NCBI RefSeq assembly: GCF_003428625.2 | Contig: NZ_QVQT02000004.1 | Span: 620,001-684,000, forward strand | From: Paracidobacterium acidisoli | GTDB lineage: Bacteria > Acidobacteriota > Terriglobia > Terriglobales > Acidobacteriaceae | DNA length: 64,000 nucleotides | Direction: 5' to 3' | Shown: in pieces, positions 1,583 through 60,267 of the stretch | How the letters are laid out: every line of letters starts with the position of its first letter | Numbering within the stretch: the first letter of the stretch is position 1 | Translations under genes and position numbers: made by a program | Notes under the pieces: model-generated | Databases searched by the model: none | What the model was told of the DNA's origin: nothing | Seen by the model: the letters and a program-made list of their open reading frames with translations, nothing else

Positions 1583-1657
1583 GCTGACCGTTTTTCAGCT
1601 GGCCGTCTCATCGCTATCTGTCCCTTCGCTAACCGTTCCTTAGCTGCCCCGTTTCAC
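1583..1657 (+). repeat. 15-bp direct repeat array A (five units)
   Basis: Five consecutive units of exactly 15 bp start at 1583, 1598, 1613, 1628 and 1643. Each begins GCT, and units 1, 2 and 4 have GCT-xx-CCGT. The first is GCTGACCGTTTTTCA. Arrays with the same period and consensus lie at 30317, 45140-45325 and 60206. The array ends 34 bp before the GTG of the next gene, on the same strand. No known repeat class matches; a protein-binding array or an extragenic mobile repeat are both possible. Confidence 0.7.
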
Positions 1658-20113: not shown

Positions 20114-20173
20114 GTCCGGTGTTTCTCCTTAAAACCATTACAGCATGTTTTGAGAGAGACAGGGACCTGGGCC

Positions 20174-20247
20174 GCTTCGGCTGGCGCCTGCGCTGCTTCG
20201 GCTGGCGCCTGCGCTGCTTCGGCTGGCGCCTGCGCTGCTTCGGCTGG
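20174..20247. repeat. 21-bp tandem repeat, about 3.5 copies
   Basis: The unit GCTTCGGCTGGCGCCTGCGCT is repeated at 20174, 20195 and 20216, with a partial copy from 20237. The copies are identical, so expansion is recent. It lies between the serA stop and the FmdB gene start (both read on the minus strand). Its length is a multiple of three, but the one open frame it offers is out of phase with FmdB. Confidence 0.9.
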
Positions 20248-30316: not shown

Positions 30317-30377
30317 GCTGGCCGCTCTTTAGCTGACCGTTTTTTAGCTGCCCGCTTCACCAGATGACCGCCTCTTA
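30317..30377 (+). repeat. 15-bp direct repeat array B (four units)
   Basis: Units start at 30317, 30332, 30347 and 30363 (15, 15, 16 and 15 bp): GCTGGCCGCTCTTTA, GCTGACCGTTTTTTA, then GCTGCCCGCTTCACCA and GATGACCGCCTCTTA. It fills the gap between the VWFA start (30228) and the TonB receptor stop (30385) and shares period and consensus with the arrays at 1583, 45251 and 60206. Confidence 0.75.
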
Positions 30378-30384
30378 GCAGCCT

Positions 30385-33300
30385 CTAGTATCTGAACCTC
30401 GCATTGAAGCTGAACGTGCGCATCGACCCCGCGCTCGTCACCTGGCCGTAGCTGGCCGACCCCACCGTCGTGTCCACGCCCGAATACTGCACCGTGTTGA
30501 ACACGTTATCTGCCGTCGCCCGAATCTCGAATGTCTTCGTATCGGCGAAGCGCATCGTCTTCGACGCCGACATATCGACCGACACTTTCCCCGGGCTGTC
30601 GATCGAGAAGCGTGACGCCGTTCCATACGTTGCCGCCGGTGTCGTAAACGCATCGCGGTTAAACCAGTTCTGCAGCGATCCCTCTCCGGCAATCCGTTGT
30701 CCGGATACGCGATCCGGCCGCAGCGAACCCGTGCTGCCTCTCGCCACATCTTCCGTCGCCGCCGCATACGACGGCGTCAGCGGGTTGCCCGACGCAAGCT
30801 GGAACGTCCCCGACAGCGACAGATTTTCCAGCGTCTTCGCCAGCCATCCCGTCGTGATCATGTGCGTGTCCGGTCCGAACGGCAGCTCGTACAGAAAATT
30901 GCCCTTCAGGCTGTTACGAATATCGAAGCTCGAGTTCGACTCCTCGGCCAGAATGTTCTGCCAGTTCTGCGCCACCACCAGCCCGCTGCCGCCGTTGCCG
31001 CCAACCGAGCTCGCGTCGTCGATCGAGTGCGAATACGTATACGTCGCGCCCAGCGAAATCCCGTTGCTCAGCCGCCTCCGCGCGCTCACCGCCAGCGAGT
31101 TGAAATTCGAGAACGCCACCGAATCCTCGTAGTCGTAGTACACGCCGCTCACCGACGTCGTCGCCGTGCGCCCCGGAGCATCCACCACATCCAGCCGCGT
31201 TCCCTTCGACCCCGAGTAGCCGAAGTTCAGCACAATGTTCCACGGAATCGTCCGCTGCACATTCAGGTTCCACACCTGCACATACGGCAGCCGGTAGTTC
31301 CTGTTCACCGCATAGTTGCCCAGCGTTCCCGGAGAAGGGAAGCCATTCGCCAGCGTGATATTCGCGCCGTTCGTGACCTCGTTCGTCTGCACATCGGCAA
31401 ACGGAGGCTGAAAGGCGAAATCCTGCACGAACTTTACATACTGTCCCACCGCATAGTTAATGCCGTATCCGCCGCGCACCACCGTGTCCCGCGCCGCCCG
31501 CCACGCAAAGCCCACACGAGGAGAAAAATTATTCCGCTCCGGATAGATCAGGTCCTGCGGATACTTTCCCTGGTAGGTCCCGGTCCCGTTCGGCAGCACC
31601 GGCGACGGGTCCACCGCATAGAAGTCGTTGCTTACATCAATCGTTGCCAGATGATTGTTGTTCTCCGAATACGGCGAGAAGTATTCGTATCGCAGCCCGT
31701 ACAGCAGCGTCAGGCTCGGCAGCGCTCTCCAGTCGTCCTGCGCGTAGAAGTCGTATACGTTCTCCCGCAGATACGACTTGCTGTAAGGAGCCTGCAGCGT
31801 CGTCTCCTGCGGCAGTCCGAGCAGCAGGTCCGCCAGCGAAGAGCCGCTCGTCGCCACGCCGGTAGCAGCATTTGCGCTCGTTCCCGGAGCCTCCGTGAAC
31901 AGCCCGGAGAACACATACGTTCCGGTCGAATTCGTATTCCCCAGCAGATCGTCATGCACGCGCCGGAAGTCGCCGCCGAACCGGACATTGTGTTTGCCGT
32001 GAATCCATGAGGTCGTTTCGGTGAAGGAGATGGTCTGCCCCGTGCTGAAATTCGGCTGCTGCTCGTTAAAGCCCGTGAACTGGTTCAGCGTCAGGTTCGG
32101 CAGGCCGTACAGCAGCGGATTCGACGGCAGGCCGCTCAGCCCTGCCTCGTTGGCGATGTCTGTTCCATTCGTGAAGTAGTTCGTTGTCTGAGAATTGGTG
32201 CGGTTCCATCCCAGGGTGAAGTTATTCGTCAGCCGCCCTTTGCCGATCACATATCCCAGCTGCAGCGAGTACTGGTGGCTCTGCTCCTTGCCGCCCAGAT
32301 CCGGAAAGATATTCAGATTATCCGAAGCTGAATGGCTGTAGTTGTAATTCACGTTGAGCGTCTGGTGCAGCGCGCCGTTGCCCTGTCCCAGCGCCTGCCG
32401 GATCATCCCCATCATCGGGCCGCCATTCGCGCTGCTGCCGAAGTTGTGAATGAAGCGCACTCCCACCTTCGTCGTGTTGTCCTGCTGCGAGCTCAGCCGC
32501 TGATAGTTCTGCGTGCTTCCCGGCAGATTCGGATTTGGAACATAGCCCAGCAGTGTCGACGCCTGCGTCGCAATGCAGTTTGCCGGAATCGTGTTGTTCG
32601 GAAATGGCTGCCCCGGCGTTACGCCGCTTGTCAGGCACGCCGCCGGCAGATTCGACGGTGCATAAATCGTGATGCCCTCGCCCGCCTGCGTCTTCAGGTC
32701 CGAGAAGTTTCCGCTACGCTCTTCCGCCGTCGGCACCGTCCCGTAATCGTCCACCGGAGACGATGACCGCTGTCCCGACAGCGTCAAAAACAGAATGTCC
32801 CTGGTGTCCTTTGTCAGCAGCTTCGGAATATACGGCGCACCCATGAACGTCAGCCCGAACTGGTTCGTCGCATATCCCGGCTGTGTAAACTCCTGCCCGC
32901 GAATCGCGAAGTCCTCTGCGTTCAGCGCCCCGTTGCCGCCCGACCAGAAGAACGCTCCATGCGGCTGGTTCGGCTTGAAGTTCCGGAAGTTTCCACGGAG
33001 CCCGCCGCGTCCGCCCCCGCCGCGCCCCCCTCCAAGCCCTCCGCCTCCAAATCCACCACCACCGCCGCGCTGTCCGCCCCCGGCTCCACCCTCTCCACCG
33101 TTCAGCGACTGATTCAGCTCCGCCTCATCCCGCATGCGTCCAAAATCGACTCCGGCAAACGGATTCGTCGTTCCGTTCTGTCCGTTCACCGCAACCGATT
33201 CGCTCGAGAAGTCGCTGTTTTCGGCAGACGACGGCAGCTGCACGCCGCTGTCTCCTCCCGCTCCTCCTGCCTGGATCAGATCCCGCGCAGCATTCAGCAG

Positions 33301-33810
33301 GCTCAGATTCTGAGCCCCGCCCAGATACTGCCGGGCCGTCGACGCACTCTCCGTCGTTTGTTCCTGTCGAGCCGCCCGGGAAGCAAGCATCAGCGAAAAA
33401 TCGGCCGTCTGATCGTGCGATGCGGCATTCAGCAGAGCTTCTTTCGTGTTGTCTGCGAACGCGGCGAAATCGGTTCTCACTACATAGCGTCCGCGCTGCG
33501 GAATGGTCAGGGAGTAGTGCCCGGTAATGTCCGTCGTCGTGCTGTATTTTTTCCCGGTCAGGGTGTTGGTCGCCGTCACGCTTACACCCGGCAGCGGCAC
33601 AGCCCCTGCTCCCTCGCCTGCTTTGATGCTGCCGTGAATCGTGCCTCCGCTCTCAGCGGGAGAGGGCAGAGCCTGTGCTCCCGGGGATGGAGCGGTCTGC
33701 ACCGGCGCTGGTGTCGAAGCCTGCGGCGCTCCCGTCGCCTGGGCGGAGATCACCGGCGCCACCGCCAGAAGAAATGCGAAAAGAGGATAAAGGCGCACAG
33801 CGGATCTCAC
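30385..33810 (-). CDS. TonB-dependent receptor, Oar-like, with carboxypeptidase-regulatory domain
   Basis: 1141 residues. Signal peptide (about 1-23), Pro/Ala-rich linker, then a carboxypeptidase-regulatory-like domain (GTIHGSIKAGEGAGAVPLPG... TDITGHYSLTIPQRGRY). A Gly-rich stretch (about 238-274) precedes the beta-barrel; the barrel ends FNARFRY with aromatic C-terminus, as in outer-membrane proteins. Such receptors import large polymers or peptides driven by TonB. Its start overlaps the DUF5666-like gene by 4 bp. No obvious TonB box was read. Confidence 0.88.
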   Translation of the reverse strand: MRSAVRLYPLFAFLLAVAPVISAQATGAPQASTPAPVQTAPSPGAQALPSPAESGGTIHGSIKAGEGAGAVPLPGVSVTATNTLTGKKYSTTTDITGHYSLTIPQRGRYVVRTDFAAFADNTKEALLNAASHDQTADFSLMLASRAARQEQTTESASTARQYLGGAQNLSLLNAARDLIQAGGAGGDSGVQLPSSAENSDFSSESVAVNGQNGTTNPFAGVDFGRMRDEAELNQSLNGGEGGAGGGQRGGGGGFGGGGLGGGRGGGGRGGLRGNFRNFKPNQPHGAFFWSGGNGALNAEDFAIRGQEFTQPGYATNQFGLTFMGAPYIPKLLTKDTRDILFLTLSGQRSSSPVDDYGTVPTAEERSGNFSDLKTQAGEGITIYAPSNLPAACLTSGVTPGQPFPNNTIPANCIATQASTLLGYVPNPNLPGSTQNYQRLSSQQDNTTKVGVRFIHNFGSSANGGPMMGMIRQALGQGNGALHQTLNVNYNYSHSASDNLNIFPDLGGKEQSHQYSLQLGYVIGKGRLTNNFTLGWNRTNSQTTNYFTNGTDIANEAGLSGLPSNPLLYGLPNLTLNQFTGFNEQQPNFSTGQTISFTETTSWIHGKHNVRFGGDFRRVHDDLLGNTNSTGTYVFSGLFTEAPGTSANAATGVATSGSSLADLLLGLPQETTLQAPYSKSYLRENVYDFYAQDDWRALPSLTLLYGLRYEYFSPYSENNNHLATIDVSNDFYAVDPSPVLPNGTGTYQGKYPQDLIYPERNNFSPRVGFAWRAARDTVVRGGYGINYAVGQYVKFVQDFAFQPPFADVQTNEVTNGANITLANGFPSPGTLGNYAVNRNYRLPYVQVWNLNVQRTIPWNIVLNFGYSGSKGTRLDVVDAPGRTATTSVSGVYYDYEDSVAFSNFNSLAVSARRRLSNGISLGATYTYSHSIDDASSVGGNGGSGLVVAQNWQNILAEESNSSFDIRNSLKGNFLYELPFGPDTHMITTGWLAKTLENLSLSGTFQLASGNPLTPSYAAATEDVARGSTGSLRPDRVSGQRIAGEGSLQNWFNRDAFTTPAATYGTASRFSIDSPGKVSVDMSASKTMRFADTKTFEIRATADNVFNTVQYSGVDTTVGSASYGQVTSAGSMRTFSFNARFRY

Positions 33811-43871: not shown

Positions 43872-45131
43872 ATGAAAGACACTCTTGGTGTACTGTTGGC
43901 AGGCGGCGCAGGCGAGCGGCTTTTTCCTCTTACCCGTGATCGCGCCAAGCCTGCTGTGCCGTTCGGCGGCAATTACCGCATCATCGACATCACGTTATCC
44001 AACTGCATCAATTCCGATCTGCGCCGCGTGTACATCCTTACGCAGTACAAGGCGCTGTCGCTGAACCGCCATATCCGCGAAGGCTGGACCAGTGCCGTCG
44101 CTCAGGAGCTGGGTGAGTTTATCGAGATCCTGCCGCCCATGCAGCGCGTCAGCGCCAACTGGTACATGGGCACGGCGGATGCGGTCTATCAGAACATCTA
44201 CTCCATCGGCTCCGAGCAGCCGAAGCATGTGCTCATCCTTTCCGGCGATCACATCTACAAGATGAATTACGGAAAGATGCTCCAGCAGCACGAAGAGTCC
44301 GGCGCGGACGTCACTCTCGCCACGCTGCCCATCGATCCGTCCGAGGTCTCGCGCTTCGGCGTCGTCGAAGTGGCCCGCAACGGAGAGGTCATCGGATTTC
44401 TCGAAAAGCCGAAGACCACGGATCTGCGTTCGCCCTTCAATCCCAGCATGGTCGATGCCTCGATGGGCATCTATCTCTTCAATACCGACGTGCTGCTGCC
44501 CGCGCTCATCCGCGATGCCGAGGACCCTTCCTCGAAGCACGACTTCGGCCACAACATTCTTCCCGGCATTCTCGGCAAATACAAAATCTACGCGTACAAC
44601 TTCGTCGACGAAAACCGCAAAGAGGCCCTTTACTGGCGCGACGTGGGAACACTCGAAGCCTATTACGACGCCAACATGGATGTGGCTTCGGTCTCTCCGG
44701 TATTCAACCTCTACGACAAAAGCTGGCCCATCCGGACCCGTGTCCGTCAGTATCCTCCGGCCAAGTTTGTCTTCGGCGAGCCCGGACGAACCGGCATGGC
44801 GGTCAATTCCATCGTCTCCGCCGGCTGCATCGTCTCCGGCGCCGTCGTGCGGAACAGCGTGCTCTCTCAGGATGTCCGCGTCAACTCGTATTCTGAAGTC
44901 GATTCGAGCATCGTCTTTTCGCACGTCAATATCGGGCGTCACTGCCGCATTCGCAAGGCCATCATCGATCGCGACGTACATCTGCCCGAAGGCACGGTCA
45001 TTGGTTATGACCAGAATGACGACCGCAGGAACTATTTCGTCACGCCCAGCGGCCTCACCGTCGTCACCCGCGATTATTCACTCTATGAAAATCCGGTTTC
45101 GCCCGACTTTCTGCAGGAGCCAGGAAACTGA
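43872..45131 (+). CDS. glgC: Glucose-1-phosphate adenylyltransferase
   Basis: 419 residues. The nucleotidyltransferase opening LLAGGAGERLFPLTRDRAKPAVPFGGNYR is split here as LLAGGAGERLFPLTRDR and AKPAVPFGGNYR, the ADP-glucose pyrophosphorylase signature; AKPAVPFGG holds the ligand Lys. HVLILSGDHIYKMNY and GVVEVARNGEVIGFLEKP follow. The C-terminal ~130 residues form the left-handed beta-helix with IVSAGCIVSGAVVRNSVLS. Catalyses ATP + glucose-1-phosphate to ADP-glucose for glycogen synthesis; GH57-type glycosidase at 61380 may act on the same polymer. Confidence 0.94.
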   Translation: MKDTLGVLLAGGAGERLFPLTRDRAKPAVPFGGNYRIIDITLSNCINSDLRRVYILTQYKALSLNRHIREGWTSAVAQELGEFIEILPPMQRVSANWYMGTADAVYQNIYSIGSEQPKHVLILSGDHIYKMNYGKMLQQHEESGADVTLATLPIDPSEVSRFGVVEVARNGEVIGFLEKPKTTDLRSPFNPSMVDASMGIYLFNTDVLLPALIRDAEDPSSKHDFGHNILPGILGKYKIYAYNFVDENRKEALYWRDVGTLEAYYDANMDVASVSPVFNLYDKSWPIRTRVRQYPPAKFVFGEPGRTGMAVNSIVSAGCIVSGAVVRNSVLSQDVRVNSYSEVDSSIVFSHVNIGRHCRIRKAIIDRDVHLPEGTVIGYDQNDDRRNYFVTPSGLTVVTRDYSLYENPVSPDFLQEPGN

Positions 45132-45139
45132 GGGGAAGG

Positions 45140-45201
45140 TGAGATCCGATCAGCCAGGATACGGTCGGCTAAAGTCCGGTCATTTGATAAAGCGGGTCAG
45201 C
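45140..45201 (-). repeat. 15-bp repeat array C, minus-strand half
   Basis: Read on the minus strand from 45201: units of 16, 16, 15 and 15 bp (GCTGACCCGCTTTATC, AAATGACCGGACTTTA, GCCGACCGTATCCTG, GCTGATCGGATCTCA). It starts 9 bp after the glgC stop and faces the plus-strand array at 45251 across a 49-bp spacer, an inverted pair. Confidence 0.65.
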
Positions 45202-45250
45202 GTGTGATGTCTGGAGATAAGGATATAAGCCTTCCGTCAGAGGATTCCCC

Positions 45251-45325
45251 GCTGACCGCCTCTTCGCCGACCGGATTTTAACTGACCGGTCCTTCGCTTA
45301 CCGCTTTTCCGCTGCCTTTCCTGTA
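45251..45325 (+). repeat. 15-bp repeat array C, plus-strand half (five units)
   Basis: Five exact 15-bp units from 45251: GCTGACCGCCTCTTC, GCCGACCGGATTTTA, ACTGACCGGTCCTTC, GCTTACCGCTTTTCC and a diverged last unit. The CCG core is conserved in four. It ends 62 bp before the ATG of the ECF sigma gene (45388). Confidence 0.75.
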
Positions 45326-45387
45326 ATCTTCTCCATGCCAGCCGGGACACCCCGGTATGGAACCGTTCGGCGGCAATGTGCGTATGA

Positions 45388-46161
45388 ATGCACATGAGCC
45401 TGGCGGGCACAATGACGTGGGATCTGACGGCGATGCGGTTTCGCCCGGAGCGGCCTGCTGGCCGTGAGCCGGAGCAGAAGCCGAAAGCCGCGCCGGGTCA
45501 GACGTCACAGTGGCAGGGGCGCGGGCCGGCGCCCGAGCGGGCTCTGGAGAAGCATTTGGAAGGCGAGAGGCAGATCGCTGAATGGCAGATTCTGGTGCAG
45601 CGTTGCCTTGATGGTGATTCCTTCGCCTGGACCGAGCTTGTCAAGGCCTACCATCGCCGCGTCTACGGACTCTGTTATCGCTTTACCGGCTCCGCTCAGG
45701 ACGCCGAAGACCTCACCCAGGATGTCTTCATCAAAGTCTATGGAAACCTGGCCAGCTTTGATCTGACCCGGGGCACCTTCCAGACATGGATCACCACCAT
45801 GACCCGCAATCTGCTGGTCGATCACTTCCGCCGCACCCGTCAGCAGCGTGTGACCGATTCAATGGATGCAGGCTGGGAGGAGGCTGACGAGCAGCCTCTG
45901 GCGCACCGGCTCTCCGACTCCGGTCCGACGCAGCATGATCGCGCCGTTCGCCGGGAAATTGAGAAAATGGTGCAGGAAGCACTGACAAAAATCTCGCCGG
46001 AGCTGCGCGAAGCTGTTATTCTGCGCGATTTGCAGGACATGGACTACAAAGAGATCGCACAGGTCCTCCATATTCCGGAGGGAACTGTGAAGTCGCGCAT
46101 CAGCCGCGGCCGGGCGGAACTCGCGCGGCTGCTGGAACGTAATAAAGGGCAGGTGGTTTAG
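45388..46161 (+). CDS. ECF sigma factor of the envelope cluster
   Basis: 257 residues, with an N-terminal extension of ~65 low-complexity residues before region 2. Region 2: AYHRRVYGLCYRFTGSAQDA, EDLTQDVFIKVYGNL and TFQTWITTMTRNLLVDHFRR. Region 4: LTKISPELREAVILRDLQDM and TVKSRISRGRAELARLL. Several ATGs (45388, 45394, 45412) could start it. It begins a five-gene plus-strand cluster (anti-sigma, B-box-like membrane protein, small membrane protein, DUF4097-like protein). A nearly adjacent anti-sigma gene (2-bp gap) supports co-regulation. Confidence 0.9.
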   Translation: MHMSLAGTMTWDLTAMRFRPERPAGREPEQKPKAAPGQTSQWQGRGPAPERALEKHLEGERQIAEWQILVQRCLDGDSFAWTELVKAYHRRVYGLCYRFTGSAQDAEDLTQDVFIKVYGNLASFDLTRGTFQTWITTMTRNLLVDHFRRTRQQRVTDSMDAGWEEADEQPLAHRLSDSGPTQHDRAVRREIEKMVQEALTKISPELREAVILRDLQDMDYKEIAQVLHIPEGTVKSRISRGRAELARLLERNKGQVV

Positions 46162-60192: not shown

Positions 60193-60267
60193 GATAAAGC
60201 GGATAGCGGACCGCTTTATCGTCTGACCGCTTCACCAGCCGCACGCTTCTTAGCTACTCTGTTCCTG
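60193..60267 (+). repeat. 15-bp repeat array D with central inverted repeat
   Basis: Plus-strand units at 60206 (GCGGACCGCTTTATC), 60221 (17 bp, GTCTGACCGCTTCACCA), 60238 (GCCGCACGCTTCTTA) and 60253 (diverged); the last ends right at the ATG of the Rieske gene (60268). A minus-strand unit (60207-60193, GCTATCCGCTTTATC) makes a 10-bp perfect inverted repeat with the first one (GATAAAGCGG at 60193-60202 with CCGCTTTATC at 60211-60220). Confidence 0.7.

Follow-up and report, generated by a model that had tools for sequence, protein, structure and literature searches.

The interval between glgC and the gene of an ECF sigma factor in Paracidobacterium acidisoli carries two short tandem arrays on opposite strands, and the question that it raises is whether these constitute a hairpin proper to this gene pair, isolating or linking the transcription of its two neighbors as the initial annotation had supposed, or the local instance of something more general. 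The answer to which the following results lead is that the arrays are an element which is real, recurs and has a polarity, that it is not confined to the glgC/sigma pair, and that it is probably not in the first place a hairpin; the similar arrays found at dozens of other gene borders, in this genome and in related genera, suggest an undescribed kind of gene-boundary signal.

The intergenic region between glgC and the sigma factor gene

The features of the locus, and the sister arrays found in the window (the whole stretch of 64,000 nucleotides that was analyzed), are as follows.

43872..45131, plus strand: glgC (glucose-1-phosphate adenylyltransferase), left neighbor; TIGR02091 at 463.8 bits, cut-off 424.9
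45140..45201, minus strand: array of four 15-bp units with one 2-nt slip, T-rich end toward the glgC stop; direct reading and matrix scores
45201-45187, minus strand: unit 1, GCTGACCCGCTTTAT, weak (score 4.8), followed by two extra bases
45184-45170, minus strand: unit 2, AATGACCGGACTTTA
45169-45155, minus strand: unit 3, GCCGACCGTATCCTG
45154-45140, minus strand: unit 4, GCTGATCGGATCTCA
45202..45250, no strand: gap of 49 bp between the arrays, with no repeat elsewhere in the genome
45251..45316, plus strand: array of four units and a half unit, T-rich end toward the sigma gene; direct reading and matrix scores
45251-45310, plus strand: units GCTGACCGCCTCTTC, GCCGACCGGATTTTA, ACTGACCGGTCCTTC and GCTTACCGCTTTTCC, then the half unit GCTGCC
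45317..45387, plus strand: array end to sigma start, containing TTTCCTGTAATCTT, a possible promoter; intergenic comparison by eye
45388..46161, plus strand: ECF sigma factor gene, right neighbor; TIGR02937 at 121.3 bits, cut-off 42.9; Sigma70_r2 and r4_2
1583..1642, plus strand: sister array, upstream of the gene called at 1692-2687
30317..30377, plus strand: sister array, 7 bp from the stop of the minus-strand gene 30385-33798
60206..60252, plus strand: weaker sister array at a divergent pair of gene starts

Both flanking genes had been correctly recognized as glgC and an ECF sigma gene, their profile matches lying over the respective cut-offs but giving no indication for the epithet 'envelope', and 8 bp separate the end of the glgC stop codon from the minus array; after the sigma gene is encoded a zf-HC2 zinc-finger protein, probably the anti-sigma of this factor. 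The minus array, which had been placed from 45201 to 45140, is borne out as four units with one slip of 2 nt, and the separation of 49 bp agrees with direct reading; the plus array, which had been extended from 45251 to 45325, holds for four units as far as 45310, but the supposed fifth (45311-45325) scores -1.3 and amounts to a half unit only.

A weight-matrix scan found five arrays of at least three called units in the window, two of them at this locus, whereas 40 random 64-kb sequences with the dinucleotide frequencies of the window contained neither an array of at least three units nor an opposite-strand pair of arrays within 450 bp; the matrix having been trained on arrays of the same genome, and partly on this very locus, it is the random control and not the score that counts as evidence. 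The copies are too degenerate for an ungapped repeat finder, which missed both arrays, as did Tandem Repeats Finder at score 40, which detected the sister arrays at 1603 and 30312. Between 44900 and 45600 a consensus scan returned no sigma-70-like promoter and a terminator search no canonical terminator (a GC-rich stem-loop followed by a U-tract), and Rfam gave no match at the gathering threshold in the 64-kb window. Upstream of the sigma start, TTTCCTGTAATCTT resembles TTTCCTGTATCCTT at the equivalent position in Silvibacterium bohemicum, in a comparison of two intergenic sequences by eye, and this region is a possible candidate promoter.

A family of 15-bp units

The unit of the arrays, derived from 20 stretches of this genome and the window, is GCTGACCGCTTCTTA; since only seeds within one mismatch of CTGACCG were admitted, the core owes part of its strength to the procedure, while the T-/C-rich tail does not. 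In the 5.0-Mb genome the pattern CTGACCG-N8-CTGACCG has 103 occurrences with at most one mismatch, where a reversed-pattern control has 2, and with at most two mismatches 353, where the control has 77. The step is 15 bp at the glgC-sigma locus and in most arrays, and the intergenic DNA of the array genomes has a clear period of 15 bp as well as some arrays of 7 or 8 bp with a CAGT/CTGAC core, the same period scan giving one match in 116 kb of shuffled DNA. The matrix of this genome also detects units in five others, two of which (G128 and G046) often start with CCTGACCG instead of GCTGACCG; the loci were fetched for strong CTGACCG pairs and the units picked with a core-seeded matrix, so the conservation of the core is overstated. 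Among the neighboring genes here are aspS, pheS, pheT, tyrS, dapA, dapB, accD, tpiA, recG, mfd and the gene of an isopropylmalate/isocitrate dehydrogenase. Because the arrays belong to a genome-wide family they are not peculiar to the glgC/sigma pair, and the role at the boundary of both genes that had been proposed for them is plausible, but as that of one member among many rather than of a local device.

Polarity and position at gene edges

Of the 80 fetched stretches all but L208 of G071, hence 79, were used for calling arrays, together with the window and one further stretch (L065), which gave 135 arrays in six genomes; 131 were classed, two inside called genes and two without a called neighbor being dropped, and the genes were called with a codon-usage script of our own, not an annotation. 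In 101 of the 131 arrays the T-rich end overlaps a gene or comes within 50 bp of one; the other end does so in 16. The same holds for the arrays without a partner in the same interval (T-rich end near a gene in 46 of 59, other end in 13), a class that is somewhat overcounted, since a strong opposite unit (score above 9) stands within about 200 bp on the inner side of 8 in 60 and on the outer side of none. What the T-rich end faces is the 3′ end of a gene in 79 cases and the 5′ start in 52. At 3′ ends the commonest distance is -3 (12/79), the stop codon then being the end of the outer unit, and in seven arrays the overlap with the gene amounts to 18 to 50 bp; the distances from array to gene at 5′ edges start from 8 bp.

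When consecutive arrays less than 450 bp apart are taken together (40 pairs), 38 are minus-plus, 2 minus-minus and none plus-minus, that is, all 38 opposite-strand pairs diverge. The inverted pair between glgC and the sigma gene arises because each edge of one intergenic region carries its own array. The contexts of the arrays are tandem in 83 cases, convergent in 32 and divergent in 16, against 267, 66 and 51 for all adjacent genes of the same stretches, so that convergent gene pairs are mildly in excess. The arrays are, then, a family with a definite polarity and a position at gene edges, recurrent in six genera and with no clear arm-specific pairing.

From this we infer, tentatively, polar gene-boundary sites for a putative DNA-binding factor, the factor, its DNA target and the insulating effect being all part of the inference; it is the reading that we rate as the most likely, with function-free repeats and terminator hairpins close behind. 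The arrays would be rows of a 15-bp site (GCTGACCG with a T-rich tail), each unit being recognized singly by a putative trans-acting factor, most likely a protein that binds double-stranded DNA, and the T-rich end of each array would face one edge of a gene. At a 3′ edge, starting at or within the stop codon, the array would hold back the transcription leaving the gene or antisense transcription running into it; at a 5′ edge it would lie on the region upstream of the -10 and shape initiation; and between glgC and the sigma gene, with arrays at both edges, the most likely effect would be that the two units are kept transcriptionally apart. A point against a DNA-binding factor is that a step of 15 bp does not amount to an integral number of turns of the helix. 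The presence of the arrays in Silvibacterium bohemicum, which is cultivated, makes both the binding partner and the effect on transcription directly testable.

Whether such sites would be read as DNA or within a leader RNA can be approached from the 5′ edges. A -10-like hexamer lies between array and start in 16 of 42 of them, against 5.9 in shuffled sequence (maximum 11 in 200 shuffles), which would place the array upstream of the transcription start; in part of the 5′ edges, therefore, the array probably could act only as DNA. The hexamer begins within 7 bp of the array end at 7 of the 42 (shuffled 1.7) and at none of 71 3′ edges (Fisher p 0.0007), by a rule that was written after viewing the sequences. 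The hexamers peak 11-15 nt before the start codon, at 8 of 42 array edges and 11 of 168 others (p 0.03), near the position of the -10 in leaderless genes, which the survey consulted in part detects in Acidobacteria among others (PMC3160421). An SD-like motif is found in the final 20 nt before the start at 17 of the 42 edges, and the 26 without a hexamer between array and start count against boundary sites.

Possible repeats without function and the history of the arrays

Another explanation, which on balance we consider rather unlikely, is that the arrays have no function: slippage would have generated them as short tandem repeats, and only intergenic DNA, as far as the stop codons and core promoters, would tolerate them. 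The similarity among units bears on it directly. In this genome adjacent units share 10.12 of 15 bases and units from different arrays 9.74; in G033 and G128 the values are about 10.5 for neighbors against 10.0 and 9.7 for strangers, in G046 10.67 against 10.61, and in G118 and Silvibacterium bohemicum it is the strangers that are the more alike. Neutral growth would not lead one to expect that units within an array should be nearly as unlike as units of different arrays, nor the 38:0 orientation, nor the polar placement of arrays without a partner. Recent tandem duplication is likewise not favored by these identities. The units look almost as if each had been drawn separately from a single consensus, which is what sites recognized in trans should show, with the reservation that one matrix picked them all; the slightly greater likeness of neighbors in this genome, G033 and G128 counts against separate sites.

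In favor of repeats without function is that the apparent conservation of the core comes partly from the selection of loci. In the unscored next 15-mers beside runs of core pairs, CTGACCG is kept in at least 5 of 7 places in 86 of 282, and in 10 of 504 about 300 bp away, that is, 30% against 2%, many of the 282 lying beyond array ends. The excess indicates that arrays continue past the core pairs by which they were located, a point in favor of boundary sites; that only 30% of unselected 15-mers keep the core shows it to be partly a product of the way in which loci and units were chosen, and counts against them. Further points for repeats without function are copy numbers that differ strongly among relatives, the many edges not common to them, and the periods of 7, 8 and, by eye, 11 that the relatives contain.

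A sequence-only model of three units (E 0.01) matches 53 of the 397 genomes of the order, and at least four matches occur in 24 of them, from six of 80 genera; these counts are lower bounds under strict filters, and the absence of arrays from most relatives counts against boundary sites. By its sigma and glgC relatives P. acidisoli stands near Silvibacterium within the Acidobacteriaceae, and S. bohemicum S15 (G150, with the same places as G140) is among the array-rich genomes. In a glgC tree of 22 hand-picked rows the array-rich genomes cluster, with 3 changes against a shuffled mean of 6.1 and none of 500 shuffles as low; G116 and G151, which are one and the same genome (their places are identical) and were labeled once rich and once poor in the survey of edges, were entered once.

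S. bohemicum has a similar pair of arrays at the glgC-sigma position, with glgC 93% and the sigma factor 69% identical. Of 80 sigma loci, 27 have glgC upstream, and among these strong units on both strands are present only in S. bohemicum; one other locus (L062) has four weak units and some others have single ones. The edges held in common with G118 are those of a rhomboid gene, the adjoining membrane-protein gene, aspS and tyrS, and L044/L195 is common to this genome and S. bohemicum. Across 21 other genomes, 14 of them array-rich, arrays at the aspS 3′ edge and the tyrS 5′ edge occur only in G118, and an array flush with the glgC 3′ edge only in S. bohemicum, G128 having one 40 bp off that points away; these edges were examined because they were shared, and so give no estimate of conservation. 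From such comparisons the arrays seem to be inherited, the places in common being in favor of boundary sites, yet often lost or gained, which counts against them.

Folding and termination

The two halves had been seen as partly complementary, so that a transcript could fold into a long imperfect hairpin, and this it can do: the plus-strand RNA of 45130-45390 folds with z -3.31, better than all 200 shuffles and largely by pairing of array with array, and the minus strand with z -2.07, 7 of 200 shuffles being as good. As a conserved object, however, the hairpin is not supported, given three of four tests of its arms and the 53 arrays without a partner.

The stable plus-strand fold is the starting point for an alternative that appears to us unlikely, that of a bidirectional intrinsic terminator made of tandem half-stems, in which the minus units would be the 5′ arm, the plus units the 3′ arm and the T-rich tails the U-tracts, so that transcripts from either side would fold and stop. 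The 78 paired arrays do pair with their inner side (mean z -4.1), and, whichever direction is read, the GC cores are followed on their 3′ side by T-rich tails. The terminator finder accepts a stem of S. bohemicum in which the two innermost units pair perfectly over 15 bp (-28.9 kcal/mol), and ten relatives with short, array-less glgC intervals carry hairpins at the 3′ edge of the gene, followed in 6 of the 10, by eye, by T's; several array-less genomes of a wider set have, also by eye, no obvious hairpin with T's after glgC.

It is in the fit between arms that this terminator should be recognizable, and whole arms do fit their own partner better than swapped ones (p 0.0002), but within genomes only at p 0.056, and the excess may be inseparable from correlated arm length. 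When arms are swapped over the inner 30 nt (p 0.33) or 45 nt (p 0.25), the own partner is no better, with p about 0.96 in permutations within genomes, and a unit-by-unit test of 35 pairs finds no arm-specific fit either (p 0.75). The partnerless arrays (n = 53, those with a strong opposite unit being omitted) are not complementary to the sequence on their inner side (mean z -0.03), the gaps between paired arrays reach 390 bp, and 16 of the 131 arrays lie between divergent starts. At -12 kcal/mol the terminator finder, a crude tool of our own, accepts 20% of 65 array 3′ edges, no more than array-free convergent edges (19%), the tandem ones giving 11%. Since terminators are no rarer at array edges, the arrays are not clearly replacements for them, an idea that the ten glgC intervals had hinted at and that this general count did not support. 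The stem is probably for the most part a consequence of the common consensus and not primarily a selected hairpin.

Uptake signals and mobile elements

That the arrays are recombination or DNA-uptake signals, comparable to the uptake sequences of Pasteurellaceae and Neisseriaceae with their inverted pairs at terminators, is very improbable: the reverse unit does contain AAGCGGTC, resembling Pasteurellaceae uptake cores, of which we take one variant to be closer still, and the gene between two array pairs is inverted in G118 with respect to this genome, but the inverted order is also found in genomes without arrays there, lone units are not in excess (above score 13 the 64-kb window has three that are isolated and a fourth beside an array, five random sequences having 2.4 on average), and we know of no tandem 15-bp spacing among uptake sequences. 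In the parts of the literature consulted, AAGTGCGGT is given as a Pasteurellaceae core (PMC5217627), and uptake signals are described as of about 9-11 nt, generally in 1000 or more copies per genome, occurring in terminators, where inverted pairs after genes form hairpins (PMC1852404). The arrays share with them the inverted pairs that pair into hairpins, and differ in being tandem and in having few lone copies here, where uptake sequences would be dispersed as many single copies, within genes too.

An origin in mobile elements was also considered. REP units are palindromes of 20-40 bp linked to RAYT transposases, and BIMEs are often inverted pairs. In contrast to these repeated extragenic elements, as partly consulted (PMC3733652), no palindromic unit is present, a search of 44900-45600 with a 9-base seed having returned no inverted repeat, and the genome (97% complete) gives no Y1_Tnp (PF01797) match where the other 17 of the 18 genomes searched have one, on which ground an origin from RAYT/REP was rejected. 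A common mobile core was rejected because the gap is not repeated, none of 36 matches to 45130-45340 in the same genome being confined to it.

Comparison with known repeats

No description of polar 15-bp arrays came up in word searches of open-licence full texts, subscription journals lying outside that scope. The STRR heptamers of cyanobacteria are degenerate short tandem repeats of intergenic DNA, to our knowledge without polarity, and they differ from the present arrays in unit and lineage. The nearest described relatives are the TAACTGA direct repeats of Beggiatoaceae, Cyanobacteria and some Bacteroidetes (MacGregor 2015, PMC4679880). In the portions of that study consulted, CTGA runs in the sense of the downstream gene in one Beggiatoaceae genome, mostly just upstream of starts and sometimes overlapping the upstream stop, and one set in Flexibacter litoralis is reversed right after a stop; the unit is of 7 bp, in two to six copies in that Beggiatoaceae genome and up to 43 elsewhere, Microcystis has other orientations, essential genes are among the neighbors and the binding factor is likewise given as not known (PMC4679880).

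Both kinds are, as far as this source describes them, short, oriented direct repeats, mostly intergenic and placed at gene edges, and the orientation flush with the edge recurs here in the 101 of 131 T-rich ends within 50 bp, with 52 of the 131 arrays facing starts. The differences are a degenerate unit of 15 bp instead of 7, another phylum, the many arrays at 3′ edges and the inverted pairs. Some arrays in related Acidobacteriaceae, with a CAGT/CTGAC core, have a period of 7 or 8, and of eleven of these, judged by eye, seven keep the orientation toward the nearer gene and four are ambiguous. Oriented intergenic direct repeats are known from scattered bacteria with no proven function, and what the present arrays contribute is a strict polarity and a tight relation to stop codons and promoters.

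Returning to the boundary sites, a wider proposal can be made, more doubtful than the sites themselves, that in several genera of Acidobacteriaceae certain genes, frequently housekeeping ones, are flagged at both edges by polar arrays, which one conserved putative factor reads as DNA; this would be an insulator-like code in which orientation distinguishes the inside from the outside of the intergenic region, and the relatives of period 7 and 8 would link it to the TAACTGA arrays of other phyla.

Further observations in relatives

The arrays of period 7 or 8 with CAGT/CTGAC were seen at L204, L205, L207 and L232 of G046, partly beside 15-bp arrays, and at L247 of Acidobacteria bacterium AB60. 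At the glgC stop, G335 (L260) has, by eye, a degenerate repeat of 11 bp, and G148 (L253) and G287 (L255) have repeats of 7 bp, all three below the threshold of the period scan.

A small outer-membrane-like gene between the rhomboid gene and aspS lies in opposite orientation here (L045:4085-4741) and in G118 (L193:2707-3363), with arrays at its edges in both genomes; its orientation is as here in G148, G033, G335 and G287, and opposite in G293, G065 and G046. An inversion driven by the arrays was rejected, both orders being found also in genomes without arrays there.

The aspS of G128, G033, G335 and G287 (L225-L228) is only 65-69% identical to the query, and that of G148 and G397 (L214 and L220), of the same genus, 84 and 82%; gene replacement is a possible reading of this divergence. 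In the window, 20166-20247 holds a strong 21-bp tandem repeat (3.9 copies, 96% match) unrelated to the 15-bp arrays. Finally, contigs C11, C106, C108 and C117 of G128 carry several arrays close to their ends, as though assembly were interrupted at the repeats.
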